Virus record (IMG/VR): IMGVR_UViG_3300025674_000288
Span: 1 to 27,882 of that record
Source: a virus
Length of the DNA: 27,882 nucleotides
Direction: 5' to 3' (one strand)
Each line of letters begins with the position of its first letter. The first letter of the stretch is position 1. The position numbers and the translations under genes were made by a program. Below the pieces are notes generated by a model. It saw only the letters and a program-made list of their open reading frames with translations. It did not search any database and was not told where the DNA came from. Positions 1 through 18,900 of the stretch are shown here, piece by piece.

Positions 1-1523
1 TTACCATAGCGAGTAAGTAAACCTTTTCTCGGCTGGAAGGACTCAGGATCGACGACAGTTGGTAGCTGCTGAAGCGGAATGTACGGAGCGTAGATATAGC
101 CCGCGTCCATCGCGTTAGCACCCTTGTAACCCATGAGGATTTCGTCCTGCGGGTACATGGGGTCAACGTAAAGGTCATAACGACCCAAGAACTTACCCTT
201 ATACTCAATGCTGTTACGACCGACGTTAGTAGGCCCATCACCAGGAGCAATACCGCCCTCAAGCTTGGCAGCACTTTCCATGAGAGCAGCCATTAGAGGA
301 GAGGTAAGAAGCCAGCTACCCGGCCCACGCATGGTGGTGCGGTAGATGTCCTGCGAGGCAATGTTGATAACCGCAAGAAGGTTAGAGTACACTTCGCCAA
401 CGTGACGAGGATAAAGACCGTCCGCAGCACCCTGCGTGAAATCAACAACAAAGACGTTAGAGCCATTAAGGTTGTTTCCAGCAAACTCCGTAAGACCCGC
501 ACCTGTGCCGTTGAAGTCATAGGTGAACTGGTTGGGAACAAAAGTACCCGCAGCGGCAGCACCATCAAGACCAGGGAAGCGACCGTCCGCAGCATCACCC
601 ATGCTGATGTAATCGTTGTCCATGAGACGCTGATCAACACCGCCAAGCTGGGCAGCAGACTTGTTACGGAAGCCGTAACCAATCATGCGAAGGTCTTCAA
701 TAAGCTCACGGTCGATCTCAAGCTGAAGCTCCTTGCTAAGAAGGTCAGTAAGCTCACGCTCAAGGTCAAGGTTGTGATAAGCCTTGAGATCTTGAGAAGC
801 CTCAAGAGTCCAAAGCGCACGCATCTTACGAGTGTTAGCGACGACCGCCTCCTGCTCGATGTGGAAGGTCATCTCGGGGATGCCCGTACCAGTTAGACGC
901 TCACCAGCGGAAAGCTGCCAACCCATGAGAACCGAGGAGTTAGGCCAAGCACCAATCTGACCACCCATTGTGCCAGACGGAGCGCCGTTACCCGAAAGAG
1001 AGTCACCACCATCAGTGAAAAGGACGTTAGAAACGTCGAAGCCAGTTTTAGCAGAGTCACCGTCAAGGCCACCCTGAGTAGCGGGGTTGGGACCAAAGGT
1101 TCCTTTGTCGGTGCTATTCGTAGAAGACGTAGAACCGATGGTGGAGTTGTAAAGACCTCTGTAGGTCATGTTGAACTTACTGTAGACAGTCTGAACAGTG
1201 TTACCGTACACGCGGTCGTTACCGAGGTAGAATACCTGAGAAACCGGACCCTGCATGGGCTGGACGCCAACTAGGCTGTTAGCAAGAAGCTGCGGGTAAA
1301 CCCGACGAACGAGAGGGAAAGCGAACTTTTGGAAAGTGCCAAGCTGGCCCGTAGTTGTAGCGCCTGTAGAGAGGTTTTCTGAGATGCGCTCTTCAACAAT
1401 TGATTTCGCTTGGTTCTCAAGAAGTTGAGCGGTGACGCGACGAGTATACTCGCTGTCGATGCCCTCAAGGACAGGCTCCCACTTCTGGACAAGCTTTTCA
1501 TCCGTTTGATGCATAATATCCAT
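1..1523 (-). CDS. 23: Major capsid protein, T4 gp23-like (3' end cut by window)
   Basis: This protein builds the hexameric shell of the head. The frame is open from the ATG at 1523 to the window edge, giving 507 visible codons; T4 gp23 has 521, so only a few residues should be missing. Translating the minus strand gives a near-canonical gp23 segment, FPLVRRVYPQLLAN followed by VGVQPMQGP and QVFYLGNDRVYG (about residues 69-107), and the visible part ends in LLTRYG, as in this family near its C-terminus. The start at 1523 has AAGGA nine bases upstream, overlapping the stop codon of the scaffold gene; a second ATG (1514) is badly placed for it. The N-terminal 50 or so residues should be a propeptide removed by the prohead protease; IVE-E (42-45) and ISE-N (47-50) fit the hydrophobic-x-Glu rule. 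The gene is visibly richer in GC and uses CTT, CGT and CGC codons far more than the tail genes, consistent with very high expression. Confidence 0.95.
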   Translation of the reverse strand, partial: MDIMHQTDEKLVQKWEPVLEGIDSEYTRRVTAQLLENQAKSIVEERISENLSTGATTTGQLGTFQKFAFPLVRRVYPQLLANSLVGVQPMQGPVSQVFYLGNDRVYGNTVQTVYSKFNMTYRGLYNSTIGSTSSTNSTDKGTFGPNPATQGGLDGDSAKTGFDVSNVLFTDGGDSLSGNGAPSGTMGGQIGAWPNSSVLMGWQLSAGERLTGTGIPEMTFHIEQEAVVANTRKMRALWTLEASQDLKAYHNLDLERELTDLLSKELQLEIDRELIEDLRMIGYGFRNKSAAQLGGVDQRLMDNDYISMGDAADGRFPGLDGAAAAGTFVPNQFTYDFNGTGAGLTEFAGNNLNGSNVFVVDFTQGAADGLYPRHVGEVYSNLLAVINIASQDIYRTTMRGPGSWLLTSPLMAALMESAAKLEGGIAPGDGPTNVGRNSIEYKGKFLGRYDLYVDPMYPQDEILMGYKGANAMDAGYIYAPYIPLQQLPTVVDPESFQPRKGLLTRYG

Positions 1524-1532
1524 AATAATTAA

Positions 1533-1537
1533 TCCTT
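1533..1537 (-). promoter_or_regulatory. Shine-Dalgarno site of the capsid gene
   Basis: AAGGA lies nine bases before the ATG at 1523 and overlaps the TAA stop (1536-1538) of the scaffold gene. It decides the start MDIMHQ over the internal MHQ start and couples capsid translation to scaffold translation. Confidence 0.7.
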
Positions 1538-2186
1538 AGGATTGGGAGGTAAAGGGCATGAATTTCATGACCTCATCAGTTAGGAACTCATTGCTTTTAT
1601 TGATTTGAGTCCTTTCTTCGTTGATTTCCAAATCCGCTTTGGAAACAACTACCGCTTTCTCTGAAGAGACGAATGCTTCGTCCTTCGCGGCTTCAAGATT
1701 CTCAACTTCTTCCAGAAGCTGTGCTTTTTCAGTCTCAAGCTCAGAGGCAGTGCTCTCAGCAATAGAAACTTTCTTGTCCATAACTCTTACCGTGTTCTCA
1801 AGACGCTGGTTCTCTTCAACTAGGCTCGCAAGCTGGTTGTTTAGAACGTCAAACTCTTCCTGAAGTTCGCCATACTGGCCTGTCATTTCAGAAAGAGCGT
1901 TGTCTTGGTCGTCGGTGTTAAGCTCAAGGGACATGAGAGTTCTTACAGATTCGAATAGTCTAGCATTTCGATAGACTTCGCTCTCCTCGGAGAGTTCTGT
2001 AAGAGCTTGTTCTTTGATGTCATCAATTTTAGTGCGAATGTACGCGGTGACTCGCGCTTCAAGGAGGCCGATCTTCTCAGCGACTTGCTCGTTAATAGTA
2101 GAATCTACCAGTTGAAAGATCTGTTCAACGGTAGATTCGTCAAGCCCTTCGGGTAGAATATCAGCTATATTCTTTATATTACTCAT
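1536..2186 (-). CDS. 22: Prohead core scaffolding protein, T4 gp22-like
   Basis: This is the internal scaffold on which the capsid shell assembles, later degraded by the prohead protease. It has 216 residues, a little shorter than T4 gp22. The middle (about 90-175) is a long charged heptad-like coiled coil (EENQRLENTVRVMDKKV, then ELETEKAQLLEEVENLEAAK). The C-terminus EFLTDEVMKFMPF is the recognisable end of this family. The protein is acidic and has no cysteine. The gene sits between a gp21-like protease and a gp23-like capsid gene, exactly the T4 order 21-22-23. The ATG at 2186 is preceded by AGGAG eight bases upstream. The gap upstream is one of only two real intergenic spaces in the window, so scaffold and capsid probably have their own late promoter. 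The assignment is sure from composition, C-terminus and context together. Confidence 0.92.
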   Translation of the reverse strand: MSNIKNIADILPEGLDESTVEQIFQLVDSTINEQVAEKIGLLEARVTAYIRTKIDDIKEQALTELSEESEVYRNARLFESVRTLMSLELNTDDQDNALSEMTGQYGELQEEFDVLNNQLASLVEENQRLENTVRVMDKKVSIAESTASELETEKAQLLEEVENLEAAKDEAFVSSEKAVVVSKADLEINEERTQINKSNEFLTDEVMKFMPFTSQS

Positions 2187-2263: not shown

Positions 2264-3607
2264 TCAGCTAGGCTTAAAGTTTGTTTTTCTTTTTCCAGGA
2301 ACACGCTTCCCCTCCTTATCTAACTTCATTCTGGTTTTAGGATCTCCTGTGCTTGAAGGGTATTTTTTTACGCGCTTCCTGTATTCTTCGTCTCGTTCTG
2401 CTAACTTAGCATTTCGATTCTTTAGCCTTTCTTTTCTGTTGTAAGCCTCAACAAGACCTAGAGCCTCTGCCATCATATCACCGATTTGCTGATAGGAAGT
2501 ATGGGCCATGAGAGCTTTGCGATCTCTTCTAGCTTTGCCTCCTTGAGGACCTCGCTCGGACTGTCTTACACTTGCACGATAAGCATCTTCTCTTTGCTTC
2601 TTGCTCATGGTATAATCCTCGTCCATTTTCTTAGACTTATTTTTCTTTACAAGAGCGTCAACTCTTGCCTTGTATGCGTCACGGTCCGCTTTGTCTTTCG
2701 CACCAGCAACTCGCTCGCGGCGAGCTACTTCGGCAGGTGAAGCACCTTCCTTCTTTGCTTTAACATACTCAGCTTCGGCCCGCGTCTTCTGACGCATCTC
2801 AGAGAGACCAAAAGCCTCAGCGAGAGCAAAAGCAATCTGATGCCAGCTACCGTCAGCCCGAACAGCTTCCATAACCTTCTTCTTTTTTCCTTTGGGACCA
2901 GGGATGACACCTCGCCCTACTAGAACATCAGCCCTAGTAATCTCACCGTCCTTGTTTAGATCAGGGAAGCTACCTTTCTTCTTAGTCTTGGCTTCTTCAA
3001 TAAAGGGTGCATAGGAATCTCTTAGGCGAGCCTCGATCATGGTGACAAAGTTGGACTCCTTCTTGAGCTTGTCCTGGCTCTCTCTAACGAACTTGGACTC
3101 GGTGGACTCGGAAAGACCTGGGAAAGCTCCCCTTGTAGATGGATCAGCTACAAGGTCGAAGGTGACAAGGCGGAAGTCTTCGTTGACAACCTTCTGCCCA
3201 TTAGCATCCTCAGAGAGTGTGCCCATGCCGCGAGAAGAAATACCGATTTTAACACCGCCTTCAACGAGCGCCTTAGCTGTCATACCAGCAGGAGTGTTGA
3301 GGATCTCAGCCTCACCGATAAGCTCATCGCCTTTCATCTCAAGCTTGGTGATGAGGTGAGAAGCATTAGAAAGCTTAACCGTGTCGTTCTGAGGGTGATC
3401 AAGCTCGCCACAAAGACGCCGCTCGCTAATCATAGGCTGCACTTTCTTAAGCTGACCTTCAAGAACAGCCGTAGGATATACTCGACCATTGTTGTTCTGC
3501 TCGTTGCAGCGCCCGAAGATGCCTTTGATCTTCATGGTGGGATTAGTTTTACCCTCTGTTAGAACCTGAAGATTCTCTACGATGAATACGTCTTGTAGTA
3601 ATTGCAT
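2264..3607 (-). CDS. 21: Prohead protease, T4 gp21-like, with long C-terminal extension
   Basis: This is the maturation protease that cleaves the scaffold, core and capsid precursors in the prohead. Residues 1-165 form the herpes/T4-type protease domain: GELDHP supplies the catalytic histidine (H71), GISSRG the nucleophilic serine (S124 or S125), and FDLVADPST (150-158) the usual conserved strand. T4 gp21 is a little over 200 residues; this protein has 447. The extra 280 residues are lysine-rich and contain an EF-hand/dockerin-type loop, D216-L-N-K-D-G-E-I-T-R-A-D227, and two related peptides ending LAEAFGLSE and MAEALGLVE. These contain hydrophobic-x-Glu sites the protease could cut itself. 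The ATG at 3607 has AGGAG nine bases upstream and follows the previous stop by one base. Protease function is sure; the role of the extension is unknown and could be scaffold anchoring, DNA binding or a packaged cargo. Confidence 0.92.
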   Translation of the reverse strand: MQLLQDVFIVENLQVLTEGKTNPTMKIKGIFGRCNEQNNNGRVYPTAVLEGQLKKVQPMISERRLCGELDHPQNDTVKLSNASHLITKLEMKGDELIGEAEILNTPAGMTAKALVEGGVKIGISSRGMGTLSEDANGQKVVNEDFRLVTFDLVADPSTRGAFPGLSESTESKFVRESQDKLKKESNFVTMIEARLRDSYAPFIEEAKTKKKGSFPDLNKDGEITRADVLVGRGVIPGPKGKKKKVMEAVRADGSWHQIAFALAEAFGLSEMRQKTRAEAEYVKAKKEGASPAEVARRERVAGAKDKADRDAYKARVDALVKKNKSKKMDEDYTMSKKQREDAYRASVRQSERGPQGGKARRDRKALMAHTSYQQIGDMMAEALGLVEAYNRKERLKNRNAKLAERDEEYRKRVKKYPSSTGDPKTRMKLDKEGKRVPGKRKTNFKPS

Positions 3608-3608
3608 A

Positions 3609-4055
3609 TCACTTTTCTCCTTTGCCTAGGCGACCATCTTTGCCACCAATTCCTTTAGATTTTCTAATGGATCTACTACCATATTTTTGAGCCAGTTTAG
3701 CGGAGCCTTTTCCGTACCTAAGAAGAGTACGGGCAGCGTGCTTCTTTACACTACTAAACTTAGCCGAAGGCGTGGCGCTCCCTGGCGTAAACCCTTTTGC
3801 TATTTTTCCTTTGCCACTTTTAGCTCCCCACTTACCTTTTGAAATTACATACAATCTTCCAGCAGCCTTGGTAGAAAATATTTGCCCGTAAGATCCTTTA
3901 GATAAGGCGTCTCTGATACTAGAATAAGTTTTAACTCTGCCCTTGAATGTTTTCTTTTTGTCGTCCTTTGTGGCTTTTTTCGAGGTATAAGCTTCCCTAC
4001 CCTCTTTAGAACCACGGGCTTCATTCATACATTCTAGGGCTTCGTTAAACTTCAT
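3609..4055 (-). CDS. Small very basic protein, probable prohead-core or internal head protein
   Basis: I do not recognise a named family. The 148 residues are dominated by Lys, Arg, Gly and Ser, with almost no acidic residues after position 35, as expected of a DNA-binding protein. The N-terminus MKFNEALECMNEARG resembles the capsid-targeting peptide of the T4 internal proteins (MKTYQEFIAEA, cut after the second Glu) in length, its MK start and its Glu-Ala cleavage position. The gene lies directly before the prohead protease, where T4 has the prohead-core gene 68. Its ATG overlaps the upstream stop as ATGA (4052-4055), so it is translationally coupled; no strong Shine-Dalgarno is present. I infer a core protein packaged with the DNA after N-terminal cleavage. 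It could instead be a head-completion protein. Confidence 0.75.
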   Translation of the reverse strand: MKFNEALECMNEARGSKEGREAYTSKKATKDDKKKTFKGRVKTYSSIRDALSKGSYGQIFSTKAAGRLYVISKGKWGAKSGKGKIAKGFTPGSATPSAKFSSVKKHAARTLLRYGKGSAKLAQKYGSRSIRKSKGIGGKDGRLGKGEK

Positions 4056-4558
4056 CTGAATCTTCTTTTTATACTTTGCTTTAGAATAGCTTTGCGAGAG
4101 TTAGTTTTCCTTGAAGAGGTGGGAGAAATGTAACCTTTGGGTTTGATTTTTTTCATTGGGTCCTTGCAAGGACCCCCCAAATTAACACCAAGACCCCCCG
4201 CAGTGGTCATTTCCTTTAGGTCAGCAACCATACCCTTAACTTCTTCTAGTAAAGAAACTAGTTCTTTTCCGGTTTCTTCAGTAAGCTGCATAGGCTCTGG
4301 TGCTGGAACCTCCTCTTCCGGTTCTTCCCAAACTAATTCTGGGAACCCTTCTGAAGCAGGTGTATCTTGAGGATGAAATCCTTCACCTAAAATTTCCTGC
4401 ATCATCTCATCAGGAACTTTTATGTTAGAGATATCCTTAGCTGGAGCATTAGCGGTAGCCTTTGCCTCCTCTAGCTTTGGAGGCAAAGACTTTCCTTCTT
4501 TAATATCCTCGACCTGACCTAAGATTAGGTTCTCAGCGAAGTCTCCGATACTCTGCAC
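4052..4558 (-). CDS. Head-region protein with acidic middle and basic tail, function unknown
   Basis: The protein has about 168 residues and I recognise no family. It has a short N-terminal helix (MQSIGDFAENLILGQ), then VPDEMMQEILGEGF, an acidic Pro/Glu-rich linker (WEEPEEEVPAPEP), a predicted helix (GKELVSLLEEVKGMVADLKEM), a Gly-rich turn and a strongly basic tail (SRKAILKQSIKRRFR). The polarity from acidic to basic suits a prohead-core component. The longest frame begins at a GTG at 4564, only one base from the AGGAGG at 4566-4571; a second in-frame GTG at 4558 has ideal seven-base spacing and is preferred here. Its end overlaps the next gene as ATGA. Position in the 67/68-like slot upstream of the protease suggests head assembly, but this is inference. 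Confidence 0.7.
   Translation of the reverse strand: MQSIGDFAENLILGQVEDIKEGKSLPPKLEEAKATANAPAKDISNIKVPDEMMQEILGEGFHPQDTPASEGFPELVWEEPEEEVPAPEPMQLTEETGKELVSLLEEVKGMVADLKEMTTAGGLGVNLGGPCKDPMKKIKPKGYISPTSSRKTNSRKAILKQSIKRRFR
4158..4175. repeat. 18-base perfect palindrome inside a head gene
   Basis: The stretch GGGTCCTTGCAAGGACCC is its own reverse complement. It lies in the coding sequence of the acidic/basic head protein (codons for GPCKDP). There is no T-run after it on the minus strand, so it does not look like a terminator. Confidence 0.5.
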
Positions 4559-4560
4559 GA

Positions 4561-5001
4561 TCACTCCTCCTCGTCAGCGAAGAGAAGCTCGGCAATGGTT
4601 TCGTCGATAACAGACTCGATGTCCTCGTCGCCTTCGTGAAGCTGGCTGAGGCGATCTACGAGACCAAGAACTACGTTGAGGTGCTCAAGGATGCGCTCCT
4701 CGTCGATAGACTCGTCAAGCTGAGAGACGCAAAGGGGGCAAACGTGAACGGCTTCTTCAAGCTCCTCAGCGTCCTCGTCCTCTTCGACTTCAGTATCTTC
4801 CATGTAGCTATCCTTCATGGCCTTCTTGCCCTTCTTGGCTTTCTTCGAGCCGCAAGAAGACTTCTCCTCAAGTTCCTCAACCTCGTCTACTTCCTCTACG
4901 GCAGAGGACTCGTCAAGGCGAGCAGCAATCTCGTCGTTCTTCCAAACGGCAGCTTCCATAAGCTGTTGACGTAGTTCGTCGGTTAATTTCATGTGATCCA
5001 T
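4561..5001 (-). CDS. Acidic protein, probable prohead-core component (gp67 position)
   Basis: This 146-residue protein is very rich in Glu and Asp, with one lysine patch (KKAKKGKKAMK, 53-63) between two acidic runs (35-47 and 69-83). It has a CPLC motif (C88, C91) preceded by H86 and one further Cys (C50), which could form an incomplete zinc knuckle. The C-terminal half is helical. The first 17 residues end MKLTDELRQQLMEA, another MK-start peptide with a Met-Glu-Ala end that may be a prohead-protease site. T4 has the acidic core gene 67 in the equivalent position. The ATG at 5001 has AGGA seven bases upstream; a second ATG (4992) is too far from it. Its last codons (DEEE and stop) contain the AGGAGG that starts the next gene. 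Core function is inferred from composition and position. Confidence 0.8.
   Translation of the reverse strand: MDHMKLTDELRQQLMEAAVWKNDEIAARLDESSAVEEVDEVEELEEKSSCGSKKAKKGKKAMKDSYMEDTEVEEDEDAEELEEAVHVCPLCVSQLDESIDEERILEHLNVVLGLVDRLSQLHEGDEDIESVIDETIAELLFADEEE
4566..4571 (-). promoter_or_regulatory. Shine-Dalgarno AGGAGG inside the end of the acidic gene
   Basis: AGGAGG is made by the terminal Glu codons of the acidic protein. It stands seven bases from a GTG at 4558 and only one base from the longer GTG at 4564, so it decides the start of the following gene in favour of 4558. Confidence 0.65.
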
Positions 5002-14840: not shown

Positions 14841-15919
14841 AGGAAGTGAAGCCTCCACTTTATTGTTAGATCTTGGTATGCTGTAATGTCTTCTATGTAT
14901 GTCAGATCCTTAGACAAACCTTTTCTGCAAAACAACTTGTACTTTCTAGGATTATTTAGTACACTAAACGCAAACGGAGGTGTATTTCCGTTCAGAAGAG
15001 ATTCTTTCATATCTATGGTCCAAAGACCTAGATGATATATTCCTCCAAATAAGGTTAAAGAAGCTATATCATCTTTGGAAAGTTTGGTAGAATACTCTAC
15101 AATTCCGTTAGAAGCCAAGTCAGCGTTTGATGAAGTAGTTAATCCTGAGGAAGGTTCAGTCCCCGAAACGCTTGTTATAAAACCAGAAACATCCATAGAA
15201 CTGGCTTCATTAGGAAAGCTCCCAACTGTTAGGTTTTTAGCATAAGGGCTACTGTCTGGCCCAGGAGTTCGAATAAGTAGTCTGCCTACAAAATTTGATC
15301 CAGCCTCAGAAATACCCGCTGGATAGCTGCCCATTAAACTTCCTACATAAAAACTTGATAAAGATCCACTAAATTCTGTTTCTTCCGTAATTGCTTCTCG
15401 TATTGCCGAGGGCATAAAGTTAACGTGTTGTCCATTGCCAGGAAACACGGAACTAATAGGAGGGGTTGGCTCACCAACAAAATTTCCAGGAACTGAGCTA
15501 ATACTTGTTTCCTTCTCAAGCTTTGTTAAAACGGGATTTGGCGCTGTGGGGACTAAGGAACTTGTTGGATAAAAGTTGGACGGGTTTGCCGCGTCTGTTC
15601 GAGAAAATACCCCTACTGTGTTCCAAGCCCCGGCAGCGGCCCCTCCGTAGCCACCAGCCTGTCCCATATAAGTAGCTTTTTCTGAATCAAGTCCTCTACC
15701 AAAACCTAAAGAATTAAAAGCCTCAGACGCTGTTCCAAAAGAGATTGCTTGTATGGTGTAGTTAGAAGTATCCAGGATAGAGGAAGCATTAGAGATGTCA
15801 GCTAAGGAAGGGGATACCGTCATAATATCAGCCAACAACGCTCCCGCACCGTCAGTAAGCATGTTAGCTTCCTTAAGGATTAAATCATCTCCACTCCAAA
15901 CTTCTACTTCGCCTCTCAT
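14837..15919 (-). CDS. Structural protein, longer paralogue of the downstream gene
   Basis: This has 360 residues. Both ends resemble the 200-residue protein that follows: an N-terminal strand plus LTDGAGALLADIM (22-34) and a C-terminal TIKWRLHFL. The extra 150 or so residues in the middle are rich in Gly, Ser, Pro and Asn and contain an Ala/Gly stretch (GQAGGYGGAAAGAW), so the duplicate seems to have gained a surface-exposed insertion. The start ATG at 15919 shares one base with the previous stop (TAATG), so it is translated by coupling. No signal peptide, membrane segment or enzyme motif is visible. Hetero-oligomer formation with its paralogue at the baseplate or fibre base is a reasonable guess, not shown by the sequence. 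Confidence 0.8.
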   Translation of the reverse strand: MRGEVEVWSGDDLILKEANMLTDGAGALLADIMTVSPSLADISNASSILDTSNYTIQAISFGTASEAFNSLGFGRGLDSEKATYMGQAGGYGGAAAGAWNTVGVFSRTDAANPSNFYPTSSLVPTAPNPVLTKLEKETSISSVPGNFVGEPTPPISSVFPGNGQHVNFMPSAIREAITEETEFSGSLSSFYVGSLMGSYPAGISEAGSNFVGRLLIRTPGPDSSPYAKNLTVGSFPNEASSMDVSGFITSVSGTEPSSGLTTSSNADLASNGIVEYSTKLSKDDIASLTLFGGIYHLGLWTIDMKESLLNGNTPPFAFSVLNNPRKYKLFCRKGLSKDLTYIEDITAYQDLTIKWRLHFL

Positions 15920-18900
15920 TAGTTATCAAACTCCACTTCAGTATACTGAGTTCCAGTCTTTACATACGGACCCCACTCTGGGTGTACTCGATAGCTAACT
16001 CTACTACCTCCCTGAGGTCCCATCACCGCAGAGGTATCCGAGCTATCCCTGGAAGCTAACCCATCCACTAAAGTATTATAGAAGCCTAATACATCTGCAA
16101 GTTCCTGTTTATTATATTCGTATCTATATTCTTTAATAAAAGGTCTTAAAGGGATGGAGCTTGTTTCTAGCCCTATTCCCGTGCCCGCGCCAGCCCAGTA
16201 GCGTAGGGTTTCGTCTTGTAGTTCTATATCATCTATGAGCAGATACTTTTCATAGTTGTTGTTTGGTACAAAGAAAACCTCAATAACATAATTTCTGTTT
16301 TCGTGAATCTGATCTGTCCGAATAAATTGAGGATTAGTCTTGTCAATAATTTTTTTGTATTCGTAGTTGTTATGGATAGTGAAGTTACGAGTATCGAATT
16401 TTATTTCAAAGTTTTCAAAGTCTTGCTTTTTGATTGTATTTAGAATTTTATCGTTTACTGAGCCTTTGTCTTCTCCTAAAGCATTCAAACAATTAACAAT
16501 GTCCTCAGGAGTTCTTGTTTTAAATGTCTTTCTGTGACAAAGCCTGTTAAGCACCTGGGATATGTTTAACTTACTTACTTCAGATGGCGTCCACTTATTG
16601 TCTTCCGTCCAGGACCACATCAGTCCACTAGCGGGCTCCGTGTGAATCCAAACACCTATTTCGCCGCCGCCGAATACGGCGCGTGATTCTTCACCAACTA
16701 AAGCTCTAATATTTAGTCTAAATTGATGTTGAGGTATAAGCTTATTAACAACGTCACCGTAAGAAGAAACATCAAATCTCATTCTAGGGAGTCCTCCCAC
16801 AGACTTACACTTGATAATAGGATTATCTACTATGTATTGTTGCTGCCCAGGAAGGGCCGCACTGGTTCCCAAATGAATAACTCTAAACTCGTTTCTAGAA
16901 GGGGCACCTGAAATGTCGCAAAACTCTATACCGCTAAGTATTGTTGGGTTTCTAAAATCAAAAGAATCACCAAATGTGTACGACCTAATCAAAGGCACCA
17001 CAGCTTGCTCCTCTTGGTCAGCAATAAATGTTCCTTTACTGAGTCCTGCGTCTCCCCACACTGAGGATGCGTTTATGGGCGTATCCTGAGATAAGGATGT
17101 TTGAATAAACTCTGCTCCATTACTGCCTGTTACGCTGAAATCACAATTGTACAGAGCCCTTCCAAAGACATGAGCAAAAATATTTCCTCCAGTAGTGTTT
17201 TGAACTAACTTACCTAGAAGGTGCTTGCCGAAGTCTTTAGCATAGTTTGCGTACAGATATTGAAATTCCCTACCAAAGCTAAAGTTCTCGTAGTCCTTAA
17301 AGGAATTTATTACATATCCACTAGCAACCGCAGAGTTAGCAAAGCTCTGCACTTGATCTTTCCAATAGGAATCATTCTCATAGCTAGAAACATCACTAGA
17401 GACTTGAAGCTCTGCAAATGTTTTAGCTTTATTCTCCAAGATGGTATGCATAGATCTAATAATAGGAGGTGTTTGTCCTCTATCAACATACCTATCTGTG
17501 GCTGAGGGTACGTCCCACCTTTTAGCATCTGAACCTAATTCATTCAGACCTCGATAAGGGAAAGTGTTACTCGTATCCACGCCGGAAAAAGTATTTCTAG
17601 AATCTAGACCTTCGCAAATGTGCCACACCCCAGAAACATTCCTGTAGTTCGTGGGATGAAACTTACCCGCAGAAGCTACATAACCCAATGTTAGCTCTCC
17701 CAAAGAACTTGTCGTAGAATTTTCTAAAACAGAAGGATCGTAGGATACAGGAGCGTTGAACCCTGTTCTGTCGTAATACCCAAATTCTGGCAATAAGTAG
17801 CGTAAGTTTCTTCTTCTAAGATCTCTTCTCAGTAATGGCCCTGGCGACCCTCCTCCTGGAGGAGGGTCGAAGTTACTTTTAATCGAATCTAATGCTACTT
17901 GATCCCTAGTGAACGTACTTCTCCCAGAAGGGGAATAAGTTGTGGGGAATAGTACACCACTTATTTCTGCGTTCCCAATAACAGTACCTGAAGAATAAAA
18001 TTCTCTTGTATCATTGTCATCAAGACCTAAGTACATGAATCTTGTAGAAGAGGTTGAGTATCCATCCGCCGCGCTGGCATTTAGATTAACTTTAGGTATA
18101 CTATGGGCAGGAGAGTATTCCTGAGCTACTCTTGCTGTTTCATATAATGCATACTTAGAGTCATTTTCTAAGTTAACTTTTCTAAAATTAAAATCTGTAT
18201 TATCAAAGTCTATAAAGAAATGAGAAGATTTTCCATTCCAAAGACCTAAAAGATTTTTCTCATAGTCTGAAATCCTAAACATTACATCATCGTAATTAGG
18301 TGGATGCTGCACGGAACTAAAGAACATGAGAAATTCATTTAGGCTTCCTAAATTAGTTTCTGTGGTTACCGCAGACTCGATCAAGAAATCTCCTACTTGA
18401 TCCGCAAACTCTGGCCTGACCTTGAAGCACTTTAGTCTGTCTACTAACAAAGCAACCAGTTCAGATGTTACTATACACTCTCTAAAATATTTCACTTCCT
18501 CGAAGGGAGGCAAGGGGAAGTTTCTTTTTCCTCTGTAGTTGAATAAAAATTCAGGATCCCCCTCAAACAAAAGATACTGAGGGCGAGAAAGACCTTGTGG
18601 ATGGTTCTCGCCCACCATGTATACACCTTCTCCAAAGGGACCAGGACCCAAAGCTAGTTCCCACAAAGGCCCTTCGCCAAAGTCTGCTGCCTGTCTACGG
18701 AAAGTAGCGTACCCTGGGCTGTTTATCGGGTGCCCGTGCCAAGGCTTCATAGCAGGGTCCCCAAGAGCAGTATAAAACTCACCCCTAGTTCCGTCAGAGT
18801 TCATGTAATAAAATCTGGGGAAGGGAATGTCGTTACCGTAGTATTTAAAGTTTTTTGGGTAAGCTACGGCCAAGTCTAAGAGTATTGAGTCCGTAGCTAG

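Follow-up and report, generated by a model that had tools for sequence, protein, structure and literature searches.

A probable prohead-core cassette of an uncultured T4-like phage, with conserved N-terminal candidate protease sites and a modular basic protease extension

Introduction

Which proteins of a phage head core are merely trimmed by the maturation protease, which are destroyed, and what marks them for the one fate or the other? How proteins find the core is still mysterious according to a review of the field (PMC9958956). The question is raised by a locus in the window, by which we mean the whole stretch of DNA analysed here (27,882 bases; IMG/VR virus record IMGVR_UViG_3300025674_000288, positions 1 to 27,882), where genes for small proteins lie beside that of a candidate prohead protease. 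An earlier interpretation of this DNA from its letters (hereinafter the sequence-only reading) had proposed that two of these proteins, one basic and one acidic, carry targeting peptides like those of T4 internal proteins and are cut by the neighbouring enzyme. The reference for such cuts is T4 gp21, which cleaves after L/I-x-E (PMC9026906).

Results

Gene order of the locus

The minus strand of the window encodes tail and baseplate proteins, a gp25-like wedge protein among them, and then a cassette for an acidic, a middle and a basic protein, an S77 protease, a scaffold-like protein and a gp23-like capsid protein (Table 1). This order is kept in about 22 contigs. The six genes probably make up the prohead core cassette of a T4-like phage that has not been cultured. 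The first 12 kb of the window gave no close DNA match to named phages, and the three small proteins have no detectable relatives among 50,697 named phage records; IMG/VR yielded 187 confirmed relatives of the basic protein. The gene directly upstream of the cassette encodes a 1069-aa protein that is not a portal.

The two small proteins of the sequence-only reading are both present, with N-termini exactly as it gave them (MKFNEALECMNEARG for the basic and MDHMKLTDELRQQLMEAAV for the acidic protein) and with correctly numbered junctions (Glu12-Ala13 and Glu16-Ala17, respectively), and a third, the middle protein, had been overlooked. Four-base start-stop overlaps between the acidic and middle genes (4561-4564) and between the middle and basic genes (4052-4055) suggest translational coupling of the three. 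Further along the minus strand (5089-27882), the long tail/baseplate proteins tested (531, 895 and 1447 aa) had no Pfam match.

Table 1 Features of the cassette (positions in the window; ↓ marks the position of a proposed cut; h-x-E, hydrophobic-x-Glu)
Feature	Positions	Strand	Details
Major capsid protein, gp23-like	3..1523	minus	PF07068 E=5.8e-75; cut by window edge
Scaffold, gp22-like by position and composition	1536..2186	minus	conserved LPE13↓G
Prohead protease, gp21-like (Peptidase S77)	2264..3607	minus	447 aa, C-terminal extension
Basic C-terminal extension of protease	2267..3067	minus	residues 181-447; net +29
Module 2, AHTSYQQIGDMMAE↓ALGL	2453..2506	minus	protease residues 368-385
Module 1, ADGSWHQIAFALAE↓AFGL	2804..2857	minus	protease residues 251-268
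S77 protease domain	3092..3580	minus	about residues 10-172; PF03420, 5jbl alignment
Basic protein	3609..4055	minus	148 aa, pI 10.5, net +29; conserved domain from about residue 35
Proposed N-terminal propeptide of basic protein, MKFNEALECMNE↓	4020..4055	minus	Glu12 conservation
Middle protein	4052..4564	minus	170 aa, pI 5.05; 11 h-x-E sites
N-terminal F-A-E↓ segment of middle protein	4532..4558	minus	h-x-E in homologues; then N (F-A-E↓N)
Acidic core protein	4561..5001	minus	146 aa, pI 4.1, net charge -34; 14 h-x-E sites
Acidic protein residues 1-16, to proposed cut after Glu16	4954..5001	minus	L-x-E conserved

A gp21-like protease and its motif in the capsid protein

The protease is gp21-like, as the sequence-only reading had it: it matches PF03420 (E=1e-25, 90.8 bits against a cut-off of 27) and PDB 5jbl (E=9.8e-18), and its His71 and Ser124 are invariant and correspond in the alignment to the two positions occupied by Ala in 5jbl, where we take the catalytic residues of gp21 to have been mutated. 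Near its own N-terminus it has conserved h-x-E sites (IVE11, LTE18). Profile searches placed the scaffold-like protein in no named family above threshold. In the capsid protein, ISE49↓ falls in the region of the T4 maturation cut, and all 75 distinct homologues from the clade carry [LIMV]-x-E in the T4 gp23 cut region. The P1' residue at this capsid site is A, D, E, V, S, G or N, a variety which implies that a relaxed P1' is normal in this group.

Conserved h-x-E sites at the N-termini of the small proteins

In the basic protein of the window h-x-E occurs only at Glu5 and Glu12, and when 19 basic proteins are aligned, no column before Glu12 is invariant and the next invariant one after it is Lys38. 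Across the family, 71 of 72 distinct N-termini contain [LIVMF]xE with the Glu at residues 6-20, compared with 21.1 after shuffling (sd 3.8, maximum 34 in 1000). Residues 12, 9 and 8 are the commonest positions of the Glu, P3 being Leu or Ile, and distant members start MSLFNILE↓S, MTLFKILE↓G or MSFLSIINE↓A; the position of the site thus varies from residue 8 to residue 18 and h-x-E persists, as expected for a protease site that ends a short helix. The modelled N-terminal helix is of low confidence (pLDDT about 50). The sequence-only reading had named homologues without a conserved h-x-E as a refutation, and h-x-E is conserved in homologues of both the basic and the acidic protein. It had also suggested looking for a conserved Glu-Ala junction, which does not hold for the basic family: P1' is A, G, S, R, K, D or others, including Lys or Arg in about 10 homologues, two residues that are absent from the capsid protein sites. 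An N-terminal cut of the basic protein after Glu12, leaving a predicted 136 residues of net +31, is quite likely. The basic gene has a dN/dS of 0.05 against the relative L002, and its product gave no significant match in Pfam, PHROG or PDB, by sequence or fold, and none in BFVD.

In the acidic family, with N-terminal consensus MDHxxLsDELRxxL-x-E16↓, L-x-E is present in 66 of 66 distinct homologues (shuffled, 22.5; sd 3.6), a distant relative (L027) having Gln instead of Glu at P1. The likeness to MKTYQEFIAEA that had been noticed from Met4 of the acidic protein turns out to be a coincidence: neither Met4 nor the M-K of such a tag is conserved (relatives read MDHY-, MNHH- or MEHF- at this place), and only L-x-E is. 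The acidic family, otherwise variable in sequence, also has an invariant motif, H-x-C-P-L-C-x-S-x-L, with a conserved stretch after it; the motif resembles half a zinc knuckle. For the middle protein, homology makes a GTG at 4558 the likelier start (MxSIGDFAE↓), and 55 of 65 distinct homologues have h-x-E at residues 6-20, against 20.1 (sd 3.2) after shuffling.

To place these counts in context, 35 protein families of at least six members each, drawn from homologous contigs, were compared for a conserved N-terminal h-x-E with Glu at residues 6-30. All six head-core families (acidic, middle, basic, protease, scaffold and capsid) have one, as opposed to 4 of the 29 others (Fisher p = 1.3e-4; p = 0.007 for the three small proteins alone). 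Together with the shuffled N-termini, this comparison backs the earlier contention that the shared start design is more than chance.

Internal sites separate the basic protein from its neighbours

Past residue 20, the basic family has 4 [LI]xE in 8,811 residues against 15.7 expected from composition (0.05 per 100 aa after the tag, z -3.1), a depletion based on small counts, 4 against about 16, and with a mirror-control 95% range up to 1.58 ([LI]xE); 69 of 71 members have none at all. After the tag this family is 2% Glu, yet the N-terminal site is kept. The other two small families are enriched after their tags: 476 against 238 expected in the acidic family, which is 20% Glu (5.4 per 100 aa, z about +19), and 360 against 128 in the middle family (3.7 per 100 aa, z about +23). 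In T4, IPI, IPII and IPIII have zero [LI]xE past their tags, and gp22 has 14 (5.4 per 100 aa), gp67 has 2 (2.9) and gp68 has 4 (3.1). A mirror control, the ratio of [LI]xE to Ex[LI], was aimed at excluding helix periodicity; it gave 2.90 for the middle, 2.51 for the scaffold, 1.57 for the extension and 1.33 for the acidic set, compared with 1.12 for other large ORFs, 0.73 for the mature capsid protein and, from few counts, 0.57 for the basic family. By motif counts, sites are plentiful in proteins whose shredding is known or expected and scarce in proteins that stay.

Being almost free of internal sites, like the T4 internal proteins, the basic protein should survive maturation, whereas sites abound in the acidic and middle proteins, as they do in T4 gp22, gp67 and gp68, and these two so look like shredded core proteins; the scaffold protein is likewise rich in sites. 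Judged by these motifs, survival of the basic protein and degradation of the other two are likely. The basic protein has two marks of a T4-type internal protein, namely a candidate propeptide, about 10-19 residues long, with L/I-x-E at its end and, as far as the motif tells, an uncut mature part; the acidic protein, with its own 14 h-x-E sites and its enriched family, lacks the second. Persistence of the strongly basic protein after maturation, as the sequence-only reading predicted, thus agrees with the site counts, but its casting of the acidic protein, too, as core cargo does not: in its sites, and in its gp67-like position and charge, the acidic protein has the look of a sacrificial core protein of the gp67 type rather than retained cargo.

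A hypervariable basic extension of the protease

Beyond its S77 domain the protease continues into a basic extension that is under purifying selection (dN/dS 0.11 against L002). Among 78 measurable relatives with a basic gene, the part after the domain ranges from 31 to 664 residues, and all 48 extensions of more than 100 residues are net positive. A module of outline [YWFH]xx[IMLFV][AGSC]xx[LIVMFA]xE and core form [YW]xx[IM][GA]xxLAE↓A is present in 30 of 49 extensions, with 44 copies in all compared with 0.23 expected. The module search recovered the T4 IPII and IPIII tags as controls, and found no convincing copy in whole cyanophage P-RSM6 or in parts of T4, pelagiphage Mosig and S-SCSM1. 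Separate Lys/Arg-rich ORFs contain the same module; most of them lie downstream of the capsid gene, at a distance of two or three genes, and some start MKYIKKLLSE, MKYLKRLVEA or MKNFKKRKLNEA.

Extension length varies by whole blocks among close relatives. The protease of contig L029, for example, has 271 aa and ends directly past module 1; over the part they have in common it is 85% identical to the 447-aa protease of the window. A tree built from 77 protease domains gathers the long extensions chiefly into one large group, within which the tail has been shortened several times, and sets most proteases without an extension apart in another group. With a pLDDT of 58.6 and a pTM of 0.40, an AlphaFold model of the complete protease is weak and supports no interpretation past helical modules. 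The profile of the PHROG for head maturation proteases has 519 columns, so longer proteases of such type probably exist elsewhere. Protease-tail fusions or polybasic head polyproteins were not found in the open-access literature; as far as our tools and that literature reach, a modular, hypervariable basic protease tail that shares its site module with other proteins is new.

Several further observations concern these tails. Protease residues about 210-235 (2903-2980, minus strand) read FPDLNKDGEITRADVL, a single calcium-loop pattern of EF-hand/dockerin type (Dockerin_1 E=0.09, below threshold), and a similar DxDxDGxIxxxDL lies at the same place in the proteases of L014, L029, L030, L011, L032 and L012. 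Beginnings like MPLTNKGQKIMKSMRKKYGSKEGESVFYASKNKGTI are fused to basic module-bearing tails in L011 (8310-9746), L034 (12991-13767) and L057 (near the start). Module-bearing basic ORFs also lie far from the head cassette, in G005 (L042) at 15102-16166 and in G010 (L046) at 860-1469, one of the two adjoining a DNA polymerase-like ORF.

Discussion

We regard the locus as a core cassette with one protease-site scheme, comprising a trimmed basic protein and shredded core proteins, and this explanation as a whole is probable on the sequence patterns described. The conserved start peptides and the site-dotted basic tail of the protease suggest one tagging scheme for disposable scaffold and lasting DNA-associated cargo. 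Short N-terminal helices, as modelled, would dock the proteins into the scaffold core, and the internal modules perhaps do likewise; that the N-terminal helix is a core-targeting signal we consider somewhat better than an even guess. Once the shell closes, the protease would cut after Glu. The basic protein would then lose 12 residues and remain with the incoming DNA, and the acidic, middle and scaffold proteins would be cut to peptides that leave the head. The protease would also cut its own extension at the module-type sites that separate basic linkers, and basic segments would stay behind in the head; cleavage of the extension at its modules is slightly favoured. Injection of the basic protein into the host, by analogy with T4, seems unlikely.

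The explanation of the small proteins has to be set against three others. All three could be of the gp67/gp68 type and degraded, with nothing basic left with the DNA. Their position and charges match those of T4 gp67 (acidic) and gp68 (pI 10.1) upstream of gene 21, and T4 gp68 is degraded despite being basic (PMC9958956); T4 gp68, however, has 4-5 h-x-E past its start whereas the basic family has nearly none, and the basic protein bears no similarity to gp68, so that we hold this for improbable. Alternatively, the h-x-E helix could be a scaffold-binding element that is never cut, its Glu kept for binding. Targeting and processing are separable in the T4 tag, where Asp at position 10 still permits targeting (PMC9026906), but the drift of the site along the N-terminus with h-x-E persisting, and its identity with the protease's motif in the capsid proteins of the same phages, leave this reading little probability. 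With a motif of three residues and an acidic family rich in Glu, chance or composition in Glu-rich, helical proteins might have sufficed; the family, shuffle and mirror controls disfavour this, as does the site kept in a Glu-poor basic family, and such an origin is most improbable.

For the extension the choice is closer. In lambda-type protease-scaffold fusions the scaffold part brings the enzyme into the core, and the extension could likewise be an assembly tether for the protease rather than cargo, an alternative that is a serious possibility although short of even. Its modules resemble tags, C-terminal processing of T4 gp21 is expected, and propeptides have been proposed to target gp21 to the prohead (PMC9026906). 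On the other hand, a stretch of 200-650 basic residues seems more than targeting would need, separate basic proteins contain the same module, and extension length differs widely between close relatives. A bolder proposal, which we put forward tentatively and at well under even probability, is that the protease doubles as a self-processing cargo polyprotein: the modules would carry the polybasic tail into the prohead, self-cleavage would leave peptides that condense DNA or are ejected, and the same modules would mark exchangeable cargo genes.

The locus thus opens a large natural family in which the C-terminal part of a protease ranges from 31 to over 660 residues and has a module in common with independent proteins. 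Comparison of long- and short-tailed proteases makes the targeting idea directly testable, and site-density and mirror-motif counts offer a sequence-only prediction of which core proteins are shredded and which are retained with DNA.

The N-terminal tags themselves are of an already known kind, the T4 type. Like T4 IPI-IPIII, the basic protein has a short N-terminal propeptide, in its case a proposed one, ending in h-x-E and few or no later sites. The tags differ in sequence (MKTYQEFIAE↓A in IPII/IPIII, MKxxEAhxxhxE here), and no sequence relationship was found between the proteins; unlike the T4 internal proteins, the basic protein has a deeply conserved domain as its mature part, and its gene sits inside the head cassette beside the protease. 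In the IPIII tag, residues 4 and 7 serve targeting and residues 8 and 10 processing (PMC9026906). Hydrophobic spacing upstream of the site is similar to that of the T4 tag even though the sequences differ, and by this analogy a targeting role is plausible.

The parallel with T4 internal proteins drawn in the sequence-only reading fits the basic protein by its sites but misses a second one, with gp67 and gp68. The T4 order portal-67-68-21-22-23 is paralleled by acidic-middle-basic-21-22-23, with small genes immediately upstream of the gp21 gene; the T4 pair has one acidic and one basic member, and T4 gp67 is degraded by gp21 (PMC9958956), as the many candidate protease sites of the acidic and middle proteins would suggest for them. 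Unlike in T4, there are three such genes instead of two, the basic one is without internal sites, and no portal gene lies directly upstream of the cassette in the window. Homology of the basic protein to gp68 and of the acidic one to gp67 was considered and rejected for want of profile similarity (hhalign probability <1% each, against single T4 sequences).

In the giant phages phiKZ and SPN3US, inner-body and ejection proteins likewise lose propeptides to a gp21-type protease that is itself C-terminally trimmed, and the accessible portions of PMC9026906 and PMC5694885 mention no protease-cargo fusion with repeated modules there; the cleavage motif in those phages is S/A-x-E, and the propeptides are mostly long. 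The protease described here is closest in kind to T4 gp21, with which it shares the S77 domain, the catalytic His and Ser and h-x-E near the N-terminus (LIE9 in T4). The two differ in what follows the domain: T4 gp21 and three marine relatives measure 212-216 aa in total, whereas the proteases of this group carry a hypervariable basic extension with site modules (31-664 aa).
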